Assembly: GCA_021822605.1 (NCBI GenBank)
Contig: JAKAQL010000006.1
Span: forward strand, 1 to 64,000
Length of the DNA stretch: 64,000 bases
Source of the DNA: Actinomycetes bacterium
GTDB lineage: Bacteria; Actinomycetota; Acidimicrobiia; Acidimicrobiales; Acidimicrobiaceae
Reading direction: 5' to 3'
Below are positions 8,902 to 48,194 of the stretch, in pieces (the first letter of the stretch is position 1; the number at the start of each line of letters is the position of its first letter). A model generated the notes under the pieces. The model was not told the DNA's origin and did not search any database. It worked only from the letters and a program-made list of their open reading frames with translations. A program made the position numbers and the translations under genes.

Positions 8902-8973
8902 TCGGGGGTGGTGTAATTGGCAACACTGCAGATTCTGGCTCTGCCATTGGGGGTTCGAGTCCTCCCCCCCGAG
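8902..8973 (+). tRNA. tRNA-Gln (anticodon CUG)
   Basis: A 72-base cloverleaf: acceptor arm TCGGGGG pairs with CCCCCGA, the anticodon stem GCAGA pairs with TCTGC around the loop TTCTGGC (CTG at 8935-8937), and the T arm contains GTTCGAGTC. The discriminator is G at 8973 and CCA is not encoded. The first pair is U1-A72, the known identity element that lets bacterial GatCAB recognise tRNA-Gln. A TAGGAT box at 8885-8890 could be its -10 element. A TTTT run follows at 8975-8978. Confidence 0.95.
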
Positions 8974-9331
8974 CTTTTAAGGATGACCACCATCAAGTAT
9001 TAGACCGTTGTGGGCGCATATTTGCAATCGTCTCGACGTTCAACGACGGTGGAGTCGCGGACGGACAACAGCAGATGACTCCACGCTCTGACGTCTACGC
9101 TCTTAAGAGGGCCTCTCCCGGGGACTCAATCGTGGTCGACGTGAGGTACCATCGACGCCAGAGAGCACGCCACACACTGTGGCACCGGATAGTTACCGTC
9201 GCAAAAACCGTGCTCACTGCACAACTGAGCCTGTGCATCCGCGATGTCCACCCTGTTGCTGTCGGAATGCAGCCACACGACCTCTTCTCATGCTCGTTGG
9301 CAGGAGCCGACAGCGTCCCGCTCGGCTTCTC
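8974..9331. other. Intergenic stretch with no supported gene
   Basis: This stretch of 358 bases lies between tRNA-Gln and the end of leuA. Open frames cross it, but none has a ribosome-binding site or recognisable protein, and the longest runs through the tRNA. A perfect 6-bp hairpin (GCCACA, loop CAC, TGTGGC) sits at 9169-9183 without a U-tract. It may hold the 3' region of the leuA transcript; I see nothing else that I can name. Confidence 0.4.
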
Positions 9332-10867
9332 TCATGGGGTCTCGCTATTCGAGGCCTTCTCTCGCGCCCGCAATAACCGATTGAGACCATTGAGATAGGC
9401 TCTCGCCGATGCCTCAACAATGTCAGTCGAGATACCCCTGCCTGTCACCTCAGCGTCGGGAGTTCGCAGGGTGACAACCACATCTCCAAGGGCGTCCACC
9501 CCACCCGTGACCGATGTAACGGTAAAGCCGGTCAACTGGGCGCTCAACCCAGTCGCCTCCGAGAGCGCCTGACCGATAGCATCGACCATCCCGTTACCAA
9601 CAGCATCCGCCATCACCGCATCGTTATCGATTTTGACAGCCACGCTCGCCTTTGCTGACTCACCTGAAACCGCTGCGACCGACAGGCTGATGAGTTCGAA
9701 ACGATCCGCAACGACCACCCCAAGTTCATCAGTGACGATCGCCTCGAGATCGGCCTCGGTGATCTCACTCTTGCGATCCGCCATATCCTTGAAGCGCTCA
9801 AACGCAGCATTGAGCGCATCTCCGGCGAGATCAAAACCCATATCATGCAGGGTTGAGGTAAACGCATGCCGACCAGAGTGCTTCCCGAGAATGATCTGGG
9901 ATCCCTGTTGCCCCACCGCACTCGCATCGATCACCTCATACGTGCTGCGATCCGCGAGCACACCATGTTGATGGATGCCCGATTCGTGAGCGAACGCGTT
10001 ACGACCGACGACCGACTTGTTGTACTGCACTGGGTAGCCGGTCAAACGCGATACGAGACGCGATGCCTTAGCCAACTCCTCTGTTCGGATCTGCGTTCCA
10101 AGGCCGCTGAAGAGATCCGACCGGACACGCAAGGCCATCACCACCTCTTCAAGGGCAGCGTTGCCGGCTCGTTCGCCGATTCCGTTGATGCAGCACTCCA
10201 CTTGACGCGCACCCCCTGCCACAGCAGCAAGCGAGTTTGCGGTCGCCAATCCAAGATCGTTATGACAGTGGCTGGAGATCACATACGTTCCCTGGACGTT
10301 ACGACGCACATCCTCCACCATTCGACCGAACTCCGCCGGGATTCCGTAGCCTACGGTATCGGGGATATTGATGGTCCCAGCCCCACTATCGACTGCAACC
10401 TGAATAACCTCATAGAGGAAGTCCAACGGCGTGCGGGTTGCGTCCTGCGGGGAAAACTCAACATCGTCGGTGAAGGAGCGTGCGTGTGCCACGGACGCCT
10501 TGACCTCCTCAAGCACCATATCGTTCGTCATCTTGAGCATGTGGGTGAGATGAGAGGGAGAGGTTGAGATGAAGATATGGATGCGCGCTCGCTCGGCATC
10601 ACGCAGGGCCTGCCAGCATCGATCAACATCACGTAGATGTGTGCGTGACAGTGCTGCAATAGCCGGACCTCCAACCCGACGAGCAATCGCCTGCACCGCC
10701 TCGAAATCACCCTGCGATGCGACCGGAAAGCCTGCCTCTATATAGTCAACGTTCAGGCGTGCGAGTTGTTCTGCAATCTCCAACTTCTCGAGCACGTCGA
10801 GTGATATCCCAGGAGACTGCTCACCATCTCGAAGCGTTGTATCGAAAATAATAACCTGTTCGTTCAC
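9332..10867 (-). CDS. leuA: 2-isopropylmalate synthase
   Basis: First committed enzyme of leucine synthesis: condenses acetyl-CoA with 2-oxoisovalerate. It has 511 residues with catalytic barrel motifs FDTTLRDGEQSPG near the N-terminus, SSHCHNDLGLATANSLA and NAFAHESGIHQHG. The C-terminal about 130 residues form the leucine-sensing regulatory domain (TGFTVTSVTGGVDALGDVVV). The ATG at 10867 has GGAGGAA upstream. The gene follows serA on the same strand; a leader peptide with three Leu codons and an intrinsic terminator lie between them, so expression is probably attenuated by leucyl-tRNA supply. Confidence 0.96.
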   Translation of the reverse strand: MNEQVIIFDTTLRDGEQSPGISLDVLEKLEIAEQLARLNVDYIEAGFPVASQGDFEAVQAIARRVGGPAIAALSRTHLRDVDRCWQALRDAERARIHIFISTSPSHLTHMLKMTNDMVLEEVKASVAHARSFTDDVEFSPQDATRTPLDFLYEVIQVAVDSGAGTINIPDTVGYGIPAEFGRMVEDVRRNVQGTYVISSHCHNDLGLATANSLAAVAGGARQVECCINGIGERAGNAALEEVVMALRVRSDLFSGLGTQIRTEELAKASRLVSRLTGYPVQYNKSVVGRNAFAHESGIHQHGVLADRSTYEVIDASAVGQQGSQIILGKHSGRHAFTSTLHDMGFDLAGDALNAAFERFKDMADRKSEITEADLEAIVTDELGVVVADRFELISLSVAAVSGESAKASVAVKIDNDAVMADAVGNGMVDAIGQALSEATGLSAQLTGFTVTSVTGGVDALGDVVVTLRTPDAEVTGRGISTDIVEASARAYLNGLNRLLRAREKASNSETP

Positions 10868-10985
10868 TGTTCCTCCTCATGTTCAAGAAAACTTCTGGAA
10901 TGCACATCCTTGTGAATCTCCCGCGCTCCACCTACCGATCGAATCGCTTCGGCAACCCCCGCAACCAGCAATTTCCCTCCGGAAA

Positions 10986-11020
10986 CAAAAAGACCCTCCG
11001 ATCAATGATCAAGAGGGTCT
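10986..11020 (-). terminator. Intrinsic terminator of the leuA attenuator
   Basis: On the minus strand AGACCCTC (11020-11013) pairs perfectly with GAGGGTCT (10998-10991) around a 14-base loop, followed at once by TTTTG and then TTT. It lies between serA and leuA, downstream of the Leu-rich leader peptide, where it would end transcription when leucyl-tRNA is plentiful. Confidence 0.88.
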
Positions 11021-11097
11021 AGGGCGATCACCAACGTGATCGCCCTATGTAAGAAGAAGTCGCTTGCTTGCCAAAGTAACCATACGCGCTAGACCCT
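11014..11097 (-). promoter_or_regulatory. Attenuator pairing elements for leuA
   Basis: Immediately after the leader stop an 11-bp perfect stem forms: AGGGCGATCAC (11046-11036) with GTGATCGCCCT (11031-11021), loop GTTG. In addition AGGGTCTAG at 11097-11089, just before the leader ATG, is perfectly complementary to CTAGACCCT at 11022-11014. That second pairing would sequester the 5' arm of the terminator and act as an antiterminator. Competition between these structures, set by ribosome stalling at the Leu codons, is inferred. Confidence 0.7.
11045..11083 (-). CDS. leuA leader peptide (attenuation)
   Basis: A 12-residue peptide, MVTLASKRLLLT, translated from ATG 11083 to TAG at 11045. Four of 12 codons are Leu, three of them consecutive (CTT CTT CTT) just before the stop. 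AGGG 10 bases upstream is a weak ribosome-binding site, and the same bases take part in the proposed antiterminator. The stop codon overlaps the first base of the pause hairpin. This is the classic layout of a leucine attenuator; the peptide itself needs no other function. Confidence 0.85.
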   Translation of the reverse strand: MVTLASKRLLLT

Positions 11098-12703
11098 AAT
11101 CGACCTCTACGACAGATCCGACCGACTTCGCGTAGATGATTCCAGCATTGGCCTCCAATACCTGAACTATCTCTGGGGCAACCGGACGCGACACGCTGAG
11201 CAACATCAGTGCGGTCCCATCATCCACCCTCGGCGAAACCGCCATAGAGTCAATGGAGTATCCACCGTCTCCGAGAACTTTGCCGACAACTCCAATCATG
11301 CCTGGCTGGTCGAAGTTGCGGACAGCCAGCATGGACACCGACGGAGGCACCTCGACCCAATGACCATCGACAAGCACGATCCTCGGCTCCGCGCCACTAG
11401 CCCCAGCGAGCGTCCCACCGACCACATGCTCCGGCGTACGAAGGATAACGAGGTTACGGAAGTTCAGGCTGTTTGCAACCGTCGTTTCCCGGATCTCCAG
11501 TCCTCGCTCTGAGGCGAGTTGGGGTGCATTCACATAGGATACGGGTTCATTCAGGCCGACGGAGAAAATCCCCTTGAGGATCGAAAGTGTGAGGAGTCGG
11601 GTATCTTCGTGGGCGAGCTCTCCTTGATACTCGATCTCAAGAGAACCAGGTAGTCCCCCCGTCAAGGAGGAGATGAACTGGCCGAGGAACTCCACCAAGC
11701 CGAGATACGGTCGCACCTGCGCAGAGGCCTCTGCTGCATTCACATTCACAGCGAATGGAACAAACTCGTTGGCAAGCGCCAACTGAACCTGTTCGGCGAT
11801 GGTAATACCCGCCTTGTTTTGGGCCTCCTCAGTACTTGCACCGAGATGTGGAGTCACCACCACCATGTCAAGTCCGAGCAATGGTGACCCTGTCGGCGGC
11901 TCCGTCGTGAAGACGTCCAACGCAGCTCCCGCAACCGTTCCATCGAGGAGAGCGCCGTACAGTGCCTCTTCGTCGATGATACCACCCCTTGCCGCGTTGA
12001 TGAATCGGATACCTGGCTTCACCTGTGCAAGGAGCTCCTTGCCGATGAGTCCCTTAGTCTCCTTAGATTTGGGCAGATGAATCGTCACAAAATCAGCCCG
12101 CTGCACAAGATCCACCAGCGAGGTCAGCTCTACACCCATCTTTTTAGCCCGTTCCTGGGAGATATAGGGATCGTAGGCGATGAGCGTCATACCAAAAGCC
12201 AGTGCCCGCTGGGCTACCAATGCCCCAATTCGCCCGAGTCCAACAATACCGAGCGTCTTGCCGTACAACTCGACACCTTCGAACTTCGACCGTGCCCAGG
12301 TGCCGGCGGTCAGACTGGCGTGCGCCTGCGGGATCTGTCTCGAAAGCGAGAGCAGCAAGGCCATGGTGTGTTCGGCCGCGGAGATAATGTTGGACTGAGG
12401 CGCATTGACTACCATGACGCCGGCCTGTGTTGCGGCCTCCACGTCCACGTTGTCCAAGCCGATTCCAGCCCGGCCAACAACGATCAGATGCGGCGCGTGC
12501 GCGATGACGTCAGCCGTCACCTTGGTGGCCGAGCGAATGATGATCGCATGCACATCCTGCACGGCCTCGAGGAGTTCCTCGGGAGAGAGGTCGAGGGCAA
12601 CGCGGACCTCATGTCCCGCTCCTCGAAGGATATCAAGCCCTCGATCCGCAATAACCTCGCTCACCAAAATGGTAGCCACATCTACTCCCAACTGTGTTGT
12701 CAC
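11096..12703 (-). CDS. serA: D-3-phosphoglycerate dehydrogenase
   Basis: NAD-dependent first enzyme of serine synthesis, 535 residues, the long actinobacterial type. It has a Rossmann core (GIVGLGRIGALVAQRA), the segment INAARGGIIDEEAL, then TPHLGASTEEAQ with the catalytic His. An intervening domain is followed by a C-terminal ACT domain (VRNFDQPGMIGVVGKVL) that binds serine in related enzymes. Two residues precede the catalytic fold in excess of shorter homologues. It lies downstream of the aminotransferase gene on the same strand and upstream of the leuA attenuator, so serA transcripts may read into leuA. Confidence 0.95.
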   Translation of the reverse strand: MTTQLGVDVATILVSEVIADRGLDILRGAGHEVRVALDLSPEELLEAVQDVHAIIIRSATKVTADVIAHAPHLIVVGRAGIGLDNVDVEAATQAGVMVVNAPQSNIISAAEHTMALLLSLSRQIPQAHASLTAGTWARSKFEGVELYGKTLGIVGLGRIGALVAQRALAFGMTLIAYDPYISQERAKKMGVELTSLVDLVQRADFVTIHLPKSKETKGLIGKELLAQVKPGIRFINAARGGIIDEEALYGALLDGTVAGAALDVFTTEPPTGSPLLGLDMVVVTPHLGASTEEAQNKAGITIAEQVQLALANEFVPFAVNVNAAEASAQVRPYLGLVEFLGQFISSLTGGLPGSLEIEYQGELAHEDTRLLTLSILKGIFSVGLNEPVSYVNAPQLASERGLEIRETTVANSLNFRNLVILRTPEHVVGGTLAGASGAEPRIVLVDGHWVEVPPSVSMLAVRNFDQPGMIGVVGKVLGDGGYSIDSMAVSPRVDDGTALMLLSVSRPVAPEIVQVLEANAGIIYAKSVGSVVEVD

Positions 12704-20173: not shown

Positions 20174-21754
20174 CTGCGTCACGTCGATATCTACGATACG
20201 ACCCTGAGAGATGGGTCACAGCAGGAGGGTATCTCACTCACCGTGGAGGATAAAATCCGCGTTGCCCGTCAGCTTGACACTCTTGGAGTCCAGTTCATTG
20301 AGGGGGGCTGGCCAGGGGCCAACCCCAAGGATGCAGCGTTCTTTGCCAGAGCGACCGATGAGCTCAGTCTGCAGACCGCCCAGCTTGTCGCTTTTGGTTC
20401 GACCCGTCGCGCAAATGGGGATGTTGCGAGCGACCCTAACCTTAGGGCGCTGGTCGCCAGCGGTGTTACCCATGTATGTATCGTTGCTAAGGCCTGGGAT
20501 TACCATGTGGTCCATGCACTTCGTACCTCTCTCGATGAAGCGATTGCAATGGTGCGGGATTCGGTGGCCTTCCTGACCGAGCACGGCTGTCGCGTCTTCC
20601 TCGATGCTGAGCACTTCTTCGATGGCTTCAAGGACAATCCGTCCTTCGCTTTGTCGGTGCTCGATGCCGCCGAGGAGGCAGGGGCGACGACGTTAGTACT
20701 TTGTGACACAAACGGCGGTACGCTGCCGTCAGAGATTCCCACGATTATCAACAGCGTCAAGGAGCACGTGTCACTGCCAATCGGTGTCCATTTTCACAAT
20801 GACTCCGGTTGTGCCGTTGCCAACTCCCTCATTGCGGTCGATCTTGGAGCAAGTCAGGTACAGGGATGCCTCAACGGCTACGGCGAAAGGACCGGTAATG
20901 CCAACCTCATCCCCATCATCGCGGCGCTCTCGCTCAAGGAAAAGATCACAACTATTCCTCCTCATAATCTGGAGCTCCTCACCCCCACCGCCCGTCACAT
21001 CGCTGAGATCACCAACCTCCCCCTCTCCCCGCAGACCCCCTATGTGGGTGCATCCGCCTTCACCCATAAGGCAGGCCTCCACGTCAGTGCGATCGCCAGG
21101 CGCAGCGATGCCTACGAACACATCAGCCCTGAGCTCGTTGGCAACCACAGCCGTTTCGTCGTATCGGAGATGGCGGGTCGCCAGACACTTCTGATCAAAG
21201 CGGCTGAACTCGGACTCGAACTCACCGACGACGCGACCACATCGCTCCTTCAGCGCCTCAAGGATCTCGAACATCGAGGATACCACTTTGAGGTGGCGGA
21301 TGGCTCACTTGAGCTACTGATGCGCCAGGCTCTCGGCTGGACACAGCCTTACTTCCAGGTCGAGTCCTATCGGGTTACGACCGACGGTTATCGTGGACCA
21401 GAGCTACTCACCGAAGCGACTGTCAAGGTGCAAGTGCAGGGCGAACGCATCATCGCAACGGCTGAGGGAAATGGCCCTGTTCACGCACTCGACCAGGCAC
21501 TCCGACAGGCCCTCCAGCGAACCTACCCCTCCCTCACCACCATGGGACTCGACGACTACAAGGTACGAGTGCTTGACACCTCGAGTGGCACCGATGCAAT
21601 CGTCCGGGTTCTTATCGACTTCTCCGATTCCGAGACGCAATGGACGACGACTGGCGTCTCCACCAACATCATCGAGGCATCGTTCTCAGCGCTGACTGAG
21701 GGCTTTGTACTCGCCCTCCTCAAGACCACATCAAATGAAGGGAGCGCACCGTGA
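20174..21754 (+). CDS. cimA: (R)-citramalate synthase, non-canonical start
   Basis: Condenses pyruvate with acetyl-CoA to citramalate, giving a threonine-independent route to 2-oxobutyrate and isoleucine. The catalytic N-terminal motif YDTTLRDGSQQEG (residues about 7-19) lies upstream of the first canonical start (GTG 20243), so the true start must be earlier. In frame there is no ATG, GTG or TTG after the TGA stop at 20159. CTG at 20174, giving MRHVDIYDTT, with GAAGGG 8 bases upstream, is the best candidate. Other motifs are GVHFHNDSGCAVANSL and FTHKAGLHVSA; a LeuA-type regulatory domain is at the C-terminus. Length would be 526, normal for CimA. Confidence 0.88.
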   Translation: MRHVDIYDTTLRDGSQQEGISLTVEDKIRVARQLDTLGVQFIEGGWPGANPKDAAFFARATDELSLQTAQLVAFGSTRRANGDVASDPNLRALVASGVTHVCIVAKAWDYHVVHALRTSLDEAIAMVRDSVAFLTEHGCRVFLDAEHFFDGFKDNPSFALSVLDAAEEAGATTLVLCDTNGGTLPSEIPTIINSVKEHVSLPIGVHFHNDSGCAVANSLIAVDLGASQVQGCLNGYGERTGNANLIPIIAALSLKEKITTIPPHNLELLTPTARHIAEITNLPLSPQTPYVGASAFTHKAGLHVSAIARRSDAYEHISPELVGNHSRFVVSEMAGRQTLLIKAAELGLELTDDATTSLLQRLKDLEHRGYHFEVADGSLELLMRQALGWTQPYFQVESYRVTTDGYRGPELLTEATVKVQVQGERIIATAEGNGPVHALDQALRQALQRTYPSLTTMGLDDYKVRVLDTSSGTDAIVRVLIDFSDSETQWTTTGVSTNIIEASFSALTEGFVLALLKTTSNEGSAP

Positions 21755-25414: not shown

Positions 25415-26437
25415 CTAACCGCCAGACACCTCGGTGATTTTGGACTTCGTTGACAGGAAGGGCATCATGGCACGCAACGTCGCACCAACTTGCTCAACCG
25501 GTTGATCCTTGGCCTGTTGGCGCAGCTTGTTAAAGTTTGGACGGCCAGCCGCCATCTCATCGATGAGTTCGCGTGCGAATGTTCCATCCTGGATCTCGCC
25601 AAGAATCCGCCGCATCTCCGCTCGTGTCGCCTCATTAATCACCCGCGGTCCACGCGTGAGTCCCCCATACTCTGCGGTCTCTGAGACCGAGAACCACATG
25701 CCCGCCAATCCATTCTCATAGAGAAGATCAACGATGAGTTTCATCTCATGGAGGCACTCGAAATAGGCTGACTCCGGTTGATAACCAGCCTCAACCAGGG
25801 TGGTGAAACCAGCGACAATGAGTTCACTCAGACCACCACAAAGCACCACCTGCTCACCAAAGAGATCTGTTTCAGTCTCTTCGGCAAAGGTCGTATCGAG
25901 GACGCCCGCCTTCGTTGAGCCGATTCCCCATGCGTAGGAGAGAGCGAGCGCGTGACCTGTTCCCAGAGGATCGTTTGCGACGGCGATCAGCGAGGGAACA
26001 CCGCCGCCCTCCTCATAGGTACGACGGACAAGGTGTCCGGGTCCCTTCGGGGCTATCATGATCACCGCCACATCCTCGGGCGGGACGATCTCCCCGAATC
26101 GGATGTTAAAACCGTGAGCAAAACCAAGAGTTTGGCCTGGACGGAGGTGTGGTGCCACCTCATTGTCGTAGATCTCTTTTTGCACTGTATCCGGGGCGAG
26201 GAACATGATCAGGTCCGCCCAGGCGACCGCCTCAGGTACCGACAAGACCTCGAGTCCACTCGCCCATGCCTTGTCTCCTGAGGCGGATCCTGGACGGAGC
26301 GCAACCCGCACTTTGACACCTGAGTCCGATAGGTTCAACGCATGGGCATGGCCTTGCGAACCATAACCAATGATGGCAACACGGGTGCCGCTAATGATGG
26401 ATGGATCGGCGTCCTTGTCGTAGTACATATGAGCCAT
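25415..26437 (-). CDS. ilvC: Ketol-acid reductoisomerase
   Basis: NADPH- and Mg-dependent class I enzyme of 340 residues, second step of valine and isoleucine synthesis. It shows [19 protein letters not shown] for NADPH binding, [14 protein letters not shown], and the metal-site segment [17 protein letters not shown], with [13 protein letters not shown] in the C-terminal knotted domain. Its ATG directly follows the ilvN stop codon with no gap, and the gene is the third of ilvBNC. Confidence 0.96.
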
Positions 26438-27013
26438 TTACGATACTCTTCCCTTTCTCGGTCGACGCGTAGGTTTTGGTAGCTTGCTAAGAGCAATCCT
26501 ACCTGTTCGTTGGAGTTCAATCAGACCAAACTCAGCCAGGAAGGCCTCGACATCATCGAGTTTCTCTGGAGAGAGGGCGAAGACCACCGTCAATCGATCC
26601 ATCGAAACATCGATGATCTCACCATGAAAGATCTCTACCAGCTCCATCACCTTCGCCCGGGCGCCCGCCTCTGCGTTGATAGTAGCCAACATACACTCAT
26701 ACTCGAGTGCATCGGCTGGGTCGATCTCAGTAATTTTGATAACGTTGATCAACTTATGAAGTTGCTTCGTGATCTGCTCGAGTGGCACCGTCTCGACATC
26801 GACCACGATGGTCAGCCGTGAAAAGCGCTCGTCATCGGTGGGTGCAACCGCCAACGAGTAGATATTAAATCCGCGTCGGGAGAACAATAACGCGACCCTA
26901 GCGAGCACACCTGCTCTATTCTCCACCAAAACACTCAAAATGTGATGTCGACCCTCAACGGGAGTACGGATTGACCCAATCGGGACGAGATTCGATGATC
27001 GCTCCACCATCAT
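26438..27013 (-). CDS. ilvN: Acetolactate synthase small regulatory subunit
   Basis: A 191-residue regulatory subunit that binds valine and activates IlvB. An N-terminal ACT domain (HHILSVLVENRAGVLARVA, SRRGFNIYSLAVAPT) is followed by a second ACT-like domain (RTGRIALSKL at the end). It overlaps ilvB by 4 bases and abuts ilvC. Two Met codons start the frame. The length is slightly above E. coli IlvH and normal for actinobacteria. Confidence 0.94.
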   Translation of the reverse strand: MMVERSSNLVPIGSIRTPVEGRHHILSVLVENRAGVLARVALLFSRRGFNIYSLAVAPTDDERFSRLTIVVDVETVPLEQITKQLHKLINVIKITEIDPADALEYECMLATINAEAGARAKVMELVEIFHGEIIDVSMDRLTVVFALSPEKLDDVEAFLAEFGLIELQRTGRIALSKLPKPTRRPRKGRVS

Positions 27014-28716
27014 CGGCCCCGCTGCTGGTGTGGGGGCAACACAATATCGTCGTTTGCAGCGCCAGCGGGCACCATCGGAAAGACTTTTTCGAAGGTGTCG
27101 ACGCGGAAGTCGATTACCACCGGTCGGTCATTGATCTGGTTCGCCTTCTCGATGACCGGGTCAACGTCACTCACCTGATCAACCCGAAACCCTACCGCAC
27201 CCATCGCCTCAGCCCATTTGACATAGTCGGGCAGATCCGGCGAGAGGAACACCTCCGAGTAGCGCTCCTCGTAGAACATCTCCTGCCACTGGCGCACCAT
27301 GCCGAGATAGCCGTTGTTCAAGATAGCAATCTTGATCGGAATGCGTTCGGCTGTCGCCGTCACCAGCTCCTGTGCAGTCATCTGAAAACATCCATCTCCG
27401 TCAATAGCCCAGACCGTGCTCTGGGGACGGCCAGCCTTCGCACCGATAGCGGCTGGCACCGCAAAACCCATCGTCCCAAGCCCCCCAGAGTTGATCCAGG
27501 AGTTCGGCAACTCGAATTGGAAATACTGCGATGCCCACATCTGATGTTGGCCGACGCCTGAGGCTACCACGGTATCGGCTGGAGCCAGTGCCGAGATCCG
27601 CTCAACGACGTACTGAGGCTTGATGGCGGCACCGGGTAGCGAAGGTTCATACGCGTAGGGATACTGCTGCTGCCAGGCCTGCAGCTGGGCGATCCAAGCC
27701 GACAGATCAGCTCCTTTGGCGGGTAGATGTCGGGTAATCTCTGGAATCACCCACTTCACATCGCCGACGATTGGAACATCGGGGCGGCGCACCTTACCCA
27801 GCTCGGCCGGATCGATATCGACATGGATGATCCGAGCCTTGGCCGCAAAGGCATCAACCTTGCCGGTCACACGATCATCAAAACGAGCACCAAGCGCAAT
27901 CACTAAATCGGCCTGCTGCAGCGCCGTCACCGCGGTGAAGTTACCGTGCATGCCAGGCATCCCAAGACAGAGTGGGTCCGAATCGGGGAACACTCCTCTG
28001 GCCATCAACGTGGTGACGACAGGGATGCCAGATCGAGCCACCAGCGCCCGCAACTCTTCCGAAGCTTGACCGCGAATCAACCCACCTCCCGCATAGATCA
28101 CGGGCCTAGCCGCTCCTGCAATCATCGCAGCGGCCTGCTCGATCATCTTGGCGTGTCCCTTGACCGTGGGCTGGTAGCCGGGTAGATCAAGTCGGCGTGG
28201 CCAATACCACTCCATCGTGTCGTTCGCAACGTCTTTGGGAAGATCAACCACCACCGGGCCCGGTCGACCAGTGGTCGCAACATGGAAGGCCTCAGCGATC
28301 ACCCGCGGGATATCGCTCGCTTTTGTCACCAACCAGTTGTGCTTGGTGACCGACATGGTGATCCCTGTCGTATCGGTCTCCTGAAAGGCATCGGTTCCGA
28401 TGGAGGTCGTCGCCACTTGGCCGGTAATCACCACGATCGGTATCGAGTCAACGTAAGCGTCTGCCACTGCAGTCACGATATTGGTAGCGGCAGGACCACT
28501 TGTCACGATAGCAACTCCTGGACGCCCGGTCGCCTGTGCAAACCCTTCCGCAGCGTGACCGGCCCCCTGTTCATGACGAACCAGAATATGGCGGATCGGC
28601 GACTCCAAAAGGGGGTCATAGACGGGAAGAATCGCTCCTCCGGGAAGGCCAAACACGGTCTCTACTCCCTCCATCTCGAGAGATTTGATCAACGCCTGTG
28701 CTCCGGTTATCTTCAT
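27010..28716 (-). CDS. ilvB: Acetolactate synthase large catalytic subunit
   Basis: ThDP- and FAD-dependent enzyme of about 568 residues that makes acetolactate and acetohydroxybutyrate. Visible are FGLPGGAILPVYD, the catalytic Glu segment RHEQGAGHAAEGFAQ, and the ThDP-binding GDGCFQMTAQELVTA followed by ILNNGYLGMVRQWQ. ATG 28716 is chosen because AAGGAG lies upstream; an earlier in-frame ATG at 28731 is possible. First gene of ilvBNC, preceded by a leader peptide with Val-Val-Leu-Leu-Leu and a terminator, so likely controlled by attenuation. Confidence 0.95.
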   Translation of the reverse strand: MKITGAQALIKSLEMEGVETVFGLPGGAILPVYDPLLESPIRHILVRHEQGAGHAAEGFAQATGRPGVAIVTSGPAATNIVTAVADAYVDSIPIVVITGQVATTSIGTDAFQETDTTGITMSVTKHNWLVTKASDIPRVIAEAFHVATTGRPGPVVVDLPKDVANDTMEWYWPRRLDLPGYQPTVKGHAKMIEQAAAMIAGAARPVIYAGGGLIRGQASEELRALVARSGIPVVTTLMARGVFPDSDPLCLGMPGMHGNFTAVTALQQADLVIALGARFDDRVTGKVDAFAAKARIIHVDIDPAELGKVRRPDVPIVGDVKWVIPEITRHLPAKGADLSAWIAQLQAWQQQYPYAYEPSLPGAAIKPQYVVERISALAPADTVVASGVGQHQMWASQYFQFELPNSWINSGGLGTMGFAVPAAIGAKAGRPQSTVWAIDGDGCFQMTAQELVTATAERIPIKIAILNNGYLGMVRQWQEMFYEERYSEVFLSPDLPDYVKWAEAMGAVGFRVDQVSDVDPVIEKANQINDRPVVIDFRVDTFEKVFPMVPAGAANDDIVLPPHQQRGR

Positions 28717-28797
28717 GACCGTCTCCTTCATGCATTCCTCACAAGCAACGCATCGCTAGTACTCTCCTCAGCCGATACCCCCACGAGCGTAGATACG

Positions 28798-28823
28798 AAA
28801 AGACCTCCCGAGAAGGGAGGTCT
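28798..28823 (-). terminator. Intrinsic terminator of the ilvBNC attenuator
   Basis: On the minus strand AGACCTCCC (28823-28815) pairs perfectly with GGGAGGTCT (28809-28801) around TTCTC, followed by TTT. It lies between the ilv leader peptide and ilvB, 82 bases before the ilvB start. Confidence 0.88.
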
Positions 28824-28851
28824 GGGCACGACGCAGTGAGGGGTCGTGCCC
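28824..28851 (-). promoter_or_regulatory. Pause/anti-antiterminator stem of the ilvBNC attenuator
   Basis: GGGCACGAC (28851-28843) pairs perfectly with GTCGTGCCC (28832-28824) around a 10-base loop. The stem starts on the last base of the leader stop codon and ends directly before the terminator, the same architecture as in front of leuA. A ribosome stalled on the Val/Leu codons would cover its 5' arm. I do not see an obvious antiterminator partner upstream as in leuA. Confidence 0.7.
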
Positions 28852-28901
28852 TAAAGAAGGAGTACTACCAGCGCGCGTCGAATAGTCATAGTAGGCAGCA
28901 T
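28851..28901 (-). CDS. ilvBNC leader peptide (attenuation)
   Basis: A 16-residue peptide, MLPTMTIRRALVVLLL, from ATG 28901 to TAG at 28851. It ends in two Val codons (GTA GTA) and three Leu codons (CTC CTT CTT) directly before the stop, with a further Leu and an Ile earlier. GGAG lies 5 bases before the ATG. It begins 16 bases after the ilvD stop and is followed at once by two perfect stem-loops, the second an intrinsic terminator. This is the expected form of a multivalent branched-chain attenuator. Confidence 0.87.
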   Translation of the reverse strand: MLPTMTIRRALVVLLL

Positions 28902-28916
28902 ACCCACTCCGGACAA

Positions 28917-30602
28917 CTATCCGCCAGTTACGGCCCCAATATCTGCCCCCTTGACCAAAAGAGCGTATTTTCCAAGCGCCCCTTCGGTATAGCGTGCGGG
29001 CGCTGGAACAAAAGACTGGCGCCTTCGCTCAAGTTCGGCCTCATCCACCAGCAGTTCGATTGAGTGGGACGGGACGTCGATGACAATCCTATCCCCGTCA
29101 CGGATGAGACCGATCGGTCCACCATCGGTGGCCTCCGGCGCCACATGGCCGATGCAAAACCCGTGTGTCCCACCAGAGAAGCGTCCATCGGTGATCAGGG
29201 CAGCATCGTGACCACGCCCCGCACCCTTCATTGCACCTGTCACCGCCAACATCTCACGCATCCCGGGGCCTCCCTTTGGTCCCTCATATCGGATGACCAC
29301 AACATCCCCTGACCGAATTTGACCAGCAAGGATAGCATCAAGGGCAGCCTCTTCACGATCAAAAACCCGGGCACTGCCATCAAAATGCTCCTGATCGAGA
29401 CCGGCTACCTTTACGACCGATCCAGCCGGTGCAAGCGACCCACGCAACACGGCAATACCCCCGACCTTGTGGATCGGCATATCGTACCGGTGGACGACGT
29501 CACCATCGGGGCGCGGCGGGTCATAGGCACGCAACTCCTCAGCCAAAGTCCGTCCCGTCACTGTAAGGCAATCACCATTCAAGAGACCAGCCTCCAACAG
29601 TTCGCCAAGAACCACGGGAACGCCACCAATGCGGTCAAGATCAGTCATGTGATACTTACCGTGGGGCTTGGTGTCGGCAAGATGAGGGACTCTAGCAGCG
29701 ACTCGATTGAAGTCATCAAGGGCAAGCTCCACCTTGGCTTCATGCGCGATAGCCAAGAGGTGGAGGACGGCATTGGTCGATCCGCCAAGCGCCATGACGA
29801 CAGCAATCGCATTCTCAAAAGCCGCCTTGGTCATGATCGTTCGAGGGGTGATCCCCAACTCCAGCAGATTCATCACCGCCCGACCAGCCTCGAAGGCGAT
29901 GTCCTCTCGACGACGGTCAACCGCCGGTGCCGAGGCAGAACCAATCTGAGCCATCCCAAGTGCCTCAGCCACTGAAGCCATCGTGTTGGCGGTGTACATC
30001 CCTGCGCACGACCCCTTCGTAGGACACGCGTTGCGCTCGACCTCAAGCAGTCGTTGATCATCGATGCTGCCAGCCGCATGGGCACCGACCGCTTCGAAGA
30101 CGCTCACGAGATCGAGCGTCTCACCGCGCAGGCGACCAGGAAGAATGCTGCCTCCATAGACAAAGACCGATGGAAGATCGAGGCGCGCCGCTGCCATCAT
30201 CATCCCTGGGAGCGACTTGTCGCAACCCGCCAGGGTTACCATTGCGTCAAAGCGTTCAGCGTGCATCATCAACTCGACCGAATCGGCTATCACCTCGCGA
30301 GAGACCAGAGAGGAGTGCATCCCCTCGTGACCCATCGAGATCCCATCCGAGACCGCTATGGTACCAAACTCTAACGGCACGCCGCCAGCGGATCGGACCC
30401 CAGCCTTGGCGCGTTGGGCAAGATCAGAGAGCACCAGATTGCAGGGAGTCACTTCGTTCCACGAGGACGCAATCCCAATCTGAGGCTTTGAGAAGTCCTC
30501 GTCGTTCAGACCAACCGCCCTCAACATTGCCCGTGCTGGAGCCCTCCTCGGACCCTCCGTCACCTCTTGGCTACGAATTCGGATTGATTTTGTATCGCTC
30601 AT
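28917..30602 (-). CDS. ilvD: Dihydroxyacid dehydratase
   Basis: Iron-sulphur dehydratase of 561 residues, third step of valine and isoleucine synthesis. Cluster cysteines appear in [14 protein letters not shown] and [42 protein letters not shown] and [17 protein letters not shown] are also diagnostic. The ATG at 30602 ([12 protein letters not shown]) has GAGAGGAT upstream and is preferred over an in-frame start at 30698, which adds 32 low-complexity residues. It ends 16 bases before the ilv leader peptide. Confidence 0.95.
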
Positions 30603-30721
30603 CTTGGGTATCCTCTCCGCTCGTCGTTCAGCTGTTAAGCCACTGTAGCCTTGATCGGCCCCGGACGACGCCCCTTGGTCAGAGTCGCCGTTACCCACAA
30701 GCGAAGAAGGTGATTATCGGG

Positions 30722-48049: not shown

Positions 48050-48111
48050 CTCTTCCCTTCCTCGATAGTGACACCAACAAATATACCCCTCATAGTATTC
48101 CCTTGGTGCGG

Positions 48112-48194
48112 TACCCGGAGCGGGAGTCGAACCCGCATGACCCAAAGGTCCGGGGGGTTTAAGCCCCCTGCGTCTACCATTCCGCCATCCGGGC
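48112..48194 (-). tRNA. tRNA-Leu (anticodon UAA)
   Basis: An 83-base class II cloverleaf. Acceptor GCCCGGA pairs with TCCGGGT (G1 with U72 is a wobble), the anticodon stem GGGGG pairs with CCCCC around CTTAAAC (TAA at 48161-48159), and a long variable arm is followed by GGGTTCGACTCCC. The discriminator is A, as expected for Leu, and the next bases are CCG, so CCA is not encoded. It lies between DUF501 and thioredoxin, all on the minus strand. Confidence 0.94.

Follow-up and report, generated by a model that had tools for sequence, protein, structure and literature searches.

A probable ribosome-mediated leucine attenuator with two abutting hairpins upstream of leuA in Acidimicrobiia

From our analysis of a 64,000-nucleotide stretch of an Acidimicrobiaceae genome (referred to as a whole as the window), the region between serA and leuA very probably holds an attenuator of transcription that works through the translating ribosome, by which charged leucyl-tRNA would be sensed and leuA controlled. 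The element combines a leader ORF carrying a leucine codon run, a first hairpin (hairpin 1) and an abutting terminator. Elements of this kind precede genes for two types of 2-isopropylmalate synthase, as well as ilvB and leuS, and among them the 5' arm of the terminator has no conserved alternative partner.

The leuA leader and its counterpart before ilvB

All parts of the leuA leader lie on the minus strand. The leader ORF (11045..11083, from ATG at 11083 to TAG at 11045) encodes MVTLASKRLLLT in 12 codons, and its control codons CTT CTT CTT are codons 9-11 (11051..11059). The leader stop codon forms the first bases of hairpin 1 (11020..11047; arms TAGGGCGATCAC and GTGATCGCCCTA), which is supported by folding and covariation. 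The terminator hairpin (10991..11020; arms AGACCCTC and GAGGGTCT), found by rule as well as by folding and covariation, has GATC/GATC in its interior and one unpaired base in its 5' arm; position 11020 is the one base common to both hairpins, and the U-tract TTTTGTTT follows at 10983..10990. A leucine leader peptide, a stem and a terminator with a U-tract between serA and leuA are present as the preliminary description had them, and the stem has 12 pairs instead of the 11 bp given there. The minus-strand region folds at -51 kcal/mol (z -5.06), which none of 200 shuffles equalled. A simple promoter/terminator scan listed neither this terminator, whose loop exceeds the limit of the scan, nor the promoter. 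The Rfam families include Leu_leader and T-box; at the gathering score there was no Rfam match in the leuA-leader region, and a maximum E of 5 gave two matches only (E 4.8 and 4), far under their gathering scores.

The downstream gene (9332..10867, minus strand) is leuA, a 2-isopropylmalate synthase of the TIGR00973 type by NCBIfam (PRK00915.1-3 and TIGR00973 above cut-off), which starts with GTG at 10867 behind GAGGAGG at 10878-10872. The upstream gene is serA (11096..12703, minus strand), a phosphoglycerate dehydrogenase with TIGR01327 above cut-off. Its stop codon TAG (11098-11096) makes up the first three bases of TAGGGT (11093..11098, minus strand), the likely -10 box of a leader promoter, as suggested by its sequence and by the enrichment of TANNNT across leaders described below. 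AGGG is found 10 nt in front of the MVTLASKRLLLT leader start, and AGGA, GGAG, GAGG and AAGG do not occur within 20 nt 5' of it. The window also carries tRNA-Leu (taa) at 48110-48194 (minus strand) and tRNA-Gln (ctg) at 8902-8974 (plus strand), and the CTT codons of the leuA leader would need a leucine tRNA other than this tRNA-Leu (taa). A citramalate synthase gene at 20180-21709 (plus strand; TIGR00977 above cut-off) suggests a threonine-independent route to isoleucine.

We built a covariance model, R1, from 38 leaders of the family. On the genome from which the window comes, R1 at E<=10 matched exactly two sites, the leuA leader and a second leader of the same kind before ilvB (R1 match 28798-28889). 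This second leader (28851..28889, minus strand) encodes MTIRRALVVLLL in 12 codons with a VVLLL run; a -10-like TATGCT (28897..28902, minus strand) lies 7 nt ahead of its ATG, and its hairpin 1 (28824-28851) and abutting terminator (28801-28823) together occupy 28801..28851 on the same strand. The gene behind it (27010..28731, minus strand) is ilvB, encoding the large subunit of acetolactate synthase (PRK07789.1 and TIGR00118 above cut-off). Around the ilvB leader, ilvC lies downstream (25415-26437) and ilvD upstream (28917-30698), both confirmed by NCBIfam; for the 191-aa ORF that separates ilvB from ilvC, no match was obtained at 1e-60.

Conservation, regulated genes and covariation

We compared 42 genomes of the family, in 38 of which LeuA was found at E<=1e-100, giving 38 upstream regions. 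Each of the 38 carries a leader of 11-13 codons whose last six include two or more leucine codons in a row. The strict rule (hairpin and T-run) finds a terminator in 36 of the 38 and none in G001 and G002, which have poor U-tracts. Hairpin 1 is found by rule in all 36 terminator-positive leaders except G008, G011 and G012, in whose folds it is visible. The combined rule of ORF, hairpin and terminator is satisfied by 36/38 family leaders versus 0/380 regions with shuffled 2-base blocks. The comparison with relatives in Acidimicrobiia that had been proposed earlier thus bears out leucine codons and stems before leuA. Among the 129 leucine codons of the family leaders, CTT accounts for 0.52 and CTA for 0.33, whereas the leuA genes use these two codons at 0.20 and 0.09. 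Of the relatives that carry a name, Ferrimicrobium (leuA 91%) and Ferrithrix thermotolerans (69%) are the closest.

Across the class, R1 matched 127 of 296 genomes (131 hits in 87 of 148 genera), with no match in the other 169. The hits inspected number 129, the other two (G001, G003) belonging to the family set. They precede LeuA-type genes in 116 cases, ilvB in eight and leuS in four, and one lies at a contig end. The LeuA-type genes behind the 116 hits fall into 60 with >30% and 56 with <=30% identity to the LeuA of the window; five of the low-identity genes were typed, and all five are of the TIGR00970 type. Three genomes, G123 (L061/L109), G171 (L139/L152) and G181 (L144/L088), have two LeuA-type genes, each with its own element; in each genome one LeuA has 63-66% identity and the other 25-28%, and among these low-identity genes the one from G123 was typed (TIGR00970). 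Seen from the side of the gene, an R1 hit lies 33-305 nt upstream at 59 of the best 75 class leuA places, out of 171 genomes with a leuA match in all; the 16 of these 75 places without an upstream hit include those in G078, G207, G266 and G300.

A leader ORF of 10-18 codons with an L/V/I run was picked in 119/129 class hits and none in the other 10; since the picking demanded such a run and R1 was trained on leucine leaders, leucine counts outside the family are independent only in part. Valine or isoleucine codons stand among the last six in 8/8 ilvB leaders versus 22/141 leuA leaders, and the content of the leader peptide follows the regulated pathway. An element is also found before leuS, the gene for leucyl-tRNA synthetase, at L091, L141, L161 and L172; the leaders picked are MLQSTNTRLLLT, MLQPIISRLLRL and MIQSTNSRLLRM, and the rule picked none at L172. 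Among 296 genomes of the phylum, 12 outside the class gave 14 weaker R1 hits, of which three precede leuS, three leuA and four ilvB, one lies at a contig end and three had no NCBIfam match at 1e-10. The four class leuS ORFs and several of the out-of-class leuS and ilvB ORFs are truncated at the edge of the retrieved sequence, and their scores do not reach the full-length cut-off.

The position of serA varies. The element follows serA in the genus of the window, and the end of serA lies <100 nt from the leader in 14/38 family genomes and at 128-995 nt in 10; in the fetched flank of the remaining 14 no serA was found, four of these flanks being <1.5 kb. With serA near the leader in only a part of the family, the element is independent of serA, and the earlier suggestion that the leader would also act on serA read-through transcripts is not supported. 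The nearness of serA in the genus and in those 14 genomes might be taken to mean that the structure is only the terminator of serA accompanied by a chance ORF. This explanation is refuted by conservation, and we give it practically no weight: the architecture is absent from the shuffled regions, 14 of the 38 flanks yielded no serA, and the element is linked to leuA, ilvB and leuS.

For the analyses of structure, we used a set of 153 leaders, namely the 38 of the family and 116 other picked leaders less L166, in which no terminator was found; a looser hairpin and T-run rule thus finds a terminator in 153/154 leaders. Both hairpins behave as RNA structures. In alignment A2, which holds 100 of the 129 inspected hits (98 distinct) fitted to the model, 19/19 pairs of hairpin 1 and the terminator vary on both sides. 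The covariation score of 0.381 compares with 0.039-0.132 for slid partners and was reached by 0/500 shuffles; A2 leans to the structure, which flatters covariation, and the slid control answers this in part. Hairpin 1 is weak at its two outermost pairs (51% paired in A2). RNAalifold on the MAFFT alignment A1 gave 4 pairs only, which we ascribe to MAFFT having offset the stems of different groups by one column. Hairpin 1 and the terminator are separated by a median of 0 nt, with values from -4 to +6 in 152/153 leaders, the search having permitted overlaps of at most 4. The terminator averages -19.2 kcal/mol over the 153 leaders, and in 102 of them a single unpaired base follows 8-11 pairs of its 5' arm.

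Conserved hairpins of this kind could also serve as the binding site of a protein or a small molecule, the leucine codons being incidental. A protein was proposed by Seliverstov et al. for the actinobacterial LEU element, in the part of their paper available (PMC1262725), and hairpin 1 is by eye often GCGAGC-like across families. Against such a binder stand the peptide content, which tracks the regulated pathway, the start, stop, run and spacing, which are preserved as a reading frame, and the hairpin sequences, which covary and so vary; we consider it very unlikely.

Leader start, alternative pairings and position of the ribosome

Among the 153 leaders, 81 have a TANNNT motif that ends 5-10 nt ahead of the leader start, whereas shuffling gives 9.5 on average and 18 at most (300 shuffles) and other slots give 0-6; the seven leaders of the group f1:g8 have CATCAT or AATCAT in its place. 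Shine-Dalgarno-like words are rarer than chance (6/153 leaders versus 16 shuffled). From the position of the -10 box we infer a transcription start at or near the leader ATG, and the leader would be translated from an mRNA that is leaderless or almost so.

This start bears on the antiterminator of the preliminary description, a 9-base segment (11089-11097, AGGGTCTAG) ahead of the leader that would pair with the 5' arm of the terminator on serA read-through RNA. The complementarity is real and even longer than described, growing to 12 of 13 bases (11097-11085 with 11026-11014; arm 11085..11097, minus strand), and in the genome of the window the pairing reaches -20.7 kcal/mol (z -2.46). The segment, however, holds five of the six TAGGGT bases and lies 5' of the leader start, so it should fall outside the leader's own transcript. 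The pairing is strong only in the genome of the window, the mean of 8 genus means over the 38 leaders being z +0.22, and it is not conserved even within the genus (z +0.05 to +0.44 in G015, G016, G017 and G020, -1.39 in G018 and -0.36 in G019). In the minimum-energy fold the nine bases are not paired with the terminator arm, the last three of them joining a small local hairpin, and in the centroid fold they are unpaired. We regard this route to antitermination as highly improbable; the match may be a coincidence, a recent addition or a minor player in serA read-through RNA.

A classical trp-type switch, in which a ribosome stalled at the leucine codons covers the 5' arm of hairpin 1 and leaves its 3' arm to pair with the 5' arm of the terminator as antiterminator, would be the textbook expectation. 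Weak pairings of this type do occur in single leaders (down to -8.6 or -9.7 kcal/mol). On the whole, the 3' arm of hairpin 1 pairs with the 5' arm of the terminator no better than composition predicts, whether in the 38 family leaders (z +0.12, mean of genus means) or in the 153 leaders in 48 groups (-0.13 +- 0.10). Nor is there enrichment between the upstream 60 nt and the 5' arm and loop of the terminator (+0.04 +- 0.13), for which six E. coli attenuators average about -2.4 (leuL -0.62, trpL -0.67, hisL -2.11, thrL -5.83, pheL -3.33, ilvL -1.78), the power per sequence being limited, as four of these six controls score above zero when 35 nt are used, which shows that the measure needs a long enough stretch of sequence.

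In a scan of 16 segment pairs, the hairpins themselves gave z -4.67 and -3.92. Besides them, the leucine run with the 3' arm of the terminator was the sole pair more than 2 standard errors below zero (-0.43 +- 0.12, median -9.2 kcal/mol); the leader with the 3' arm of hairpin 1 gave -0.21 +- 0.15, the loop of hairpin 1 with the 3' arm of the terminator was not enriched (z +0.19 +- 0.12), and several pairs lay at +0.5 to +0.8, which looks like avoidance of cross-pairing. The one enriched pair allows a reading in which a ribosome-free leucine run captures the 3' arm of the terminator and gives read-through in untranslated RNA. The effect is small beside the mean stability of the terminator, and the need for ribosome-free leucine codons would give starvation the wrong sign; we judge this reading improbable. 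Folding alone yields no switch in any of the 38 family leaders, the terminator probability remaining at 0.81-1.0 under every ribosome mask, which counts against the attenuator reading that we favour.

We assumed that the 3' edge of the ribosome lies 15 nt past the first P-site base. With the first leucine codon in the A site, this edge is a median of 2 nt short of hairpin 1 (from 7 before to 6 inside) and does not overlap hairpin 1 in 120/153 leaders, so a ribosome stalled there does not mask the 5' arm as the classical switch demands. A ribosome stalled at the last leucine codon would reach 5 nt into hairpin 1, which is in favour of the classical switch, and one at the stop codon would reach 11 nt into it, the 5' arm being 10 nt long (medians over 153 leaders). 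One codon separates the leucine run from the stop in 127/150 leaders with an LL run. These numbers favour the ribosome at the stop codon, and not the stalled one, as the opener of hairpin 1. On balance, the classical switch is possible but rather unlikely.

For the attenuator that we favour, we propose the following course. Transcription would begin on the leader ATG or only a few bases from it, and a ribosome would load at the 5' end of the RNA and read the 12 codons. When leucine is present the ribosome would get to the stop codon and RNA polymerase would halt at the terminator; when leucine is scarce the ribosome would stall on the CUU run and the polymerase would continue into leuA. Because the 5' arm of the terminator has no conserved alternative partner, we propose hairpin 1 itself as the antiterminator, and since the two hairpins have few bases in common, if any, one could exclude the other only by steric hindrance or just at the base of the terminator. 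At a leucine stall, the edge of the ribosome would rest just short of hairpin 1, which would stay folded and, abutting the terminator, hinder closure of the terminator base; at the stop codon, the ribosome would open the 5' arm of hairpin 1 and thereby free the terminator. We hold this step tentatively, at somewhat below an even chance, and what weight is left beyond it and the classical pairing goes to other links between the stall and the terminator or to there being no attenuator. The broadest form of the proposal, namely leaderless leucine attenuators across the class that work without alternative base pairing, with a steric hairpin 1, the stop-codon ribosome as the off switch and an element that tracks leucine function and not a particular gene, is conceivable but on the doubtful side.

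Relation to known attenuators and implications

Leucine leader peptides are known from other Actinobacteria. In Streptomyces lividans, LeuL2 (leuS) and LeuL1 (leuA) are transcribed leaderless, and in LeuL2 a 12-codon ORF (MRAVRLLLSEPR) precedes a hairpin and a uridine stretch, according to the available part of that report (PMC8079986). The likeness to the present element lies in the position before leuA and leuS and, if the putative leaderless start of the present element is right, in leaderless transcription; unlike the present element, LeuL1 is without a typical terminator, and a second abutting hairpin, which the present element has, is not described in that part of the report (PMC8079986). 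For ilvB1 of Mycobacterium tuberculosis, the accessible portion of a published proposal has the ribosome at the stop codon mask the antiterminator, while a stalled ribosome lets it form (PMC13236596). The short uORF rich in branched-chain amino acid codons and the direction of control are those proposed here, but ilvB1 relies on mutually exclusive terminator and antiterminator folds, whereas the hairpins of the present element share few or no bases (PMC13236596, same portion).

The actinobacterial LEU element shares the leader peptide with a leucine run before leuA. As set out in the part of the source available (PMC1262725), it is a pseudoknot whose base stem pairs the leucine codon run with the Shine-Dalgarno site of leuA, and other attenuator parts, the terminator included, are missing, whereas here the terminator is conserved. 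The same part of the source states that mutations of the Streptomyces coelicolor leuA leader had some effect, though not of the kind expected for classical attenuation (PMC1262725), and this too weighs against the attenuator reading. The ilvB-II element of Corynebacterium, found by covariance models, shares a uORF, a stem P1 and a terminator P2 with a U run. In the section of that paper available, its uORF spans most of P1 and its antiterminator joins the P1 loop to the 3' arm of P2 (PMC10272879), whereas in the present element the uORF stops at the base of hairpin 1 and the equivalent loop-to-3'-arm pairing was not enriched in our scan.

The trp, leu, his, thr, phe and ilv attenuators of E. 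coli likewise have a leader peptide, control codons and a terminator, and differ in that their antiterminator complementarity is detectable on average, which in the present element it is not. In the trp leader of E. coli, the Trp codons mark the beginning of the hairpin. The distance from the most stable upstream hairpin to the terminator is 7, 22, 1, 10, 11 and 16 nt in leuL, trpL, hisL, thrL, pheL and ilvL, respectively; the gap of 1 nt in hisL shows that abutting hairpins are not unique to the present element. In the open literature, the field of our search, with subscription journals mostly outside it, we found no paper on such an element in Acidimicrobiia.

The element would be a compact and recurrent leucine regulator for a class whose regulation is little known, and its 12-codon leader ORFs are targets for annotation. 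Comparison suggests that the textbook antiterminator pairing may be dispensable. If the steric model is true, two independent hairpins and the position of the ribosome would suffice to control termination, a simpler switch that would be overlooked by searches for alternative folds.
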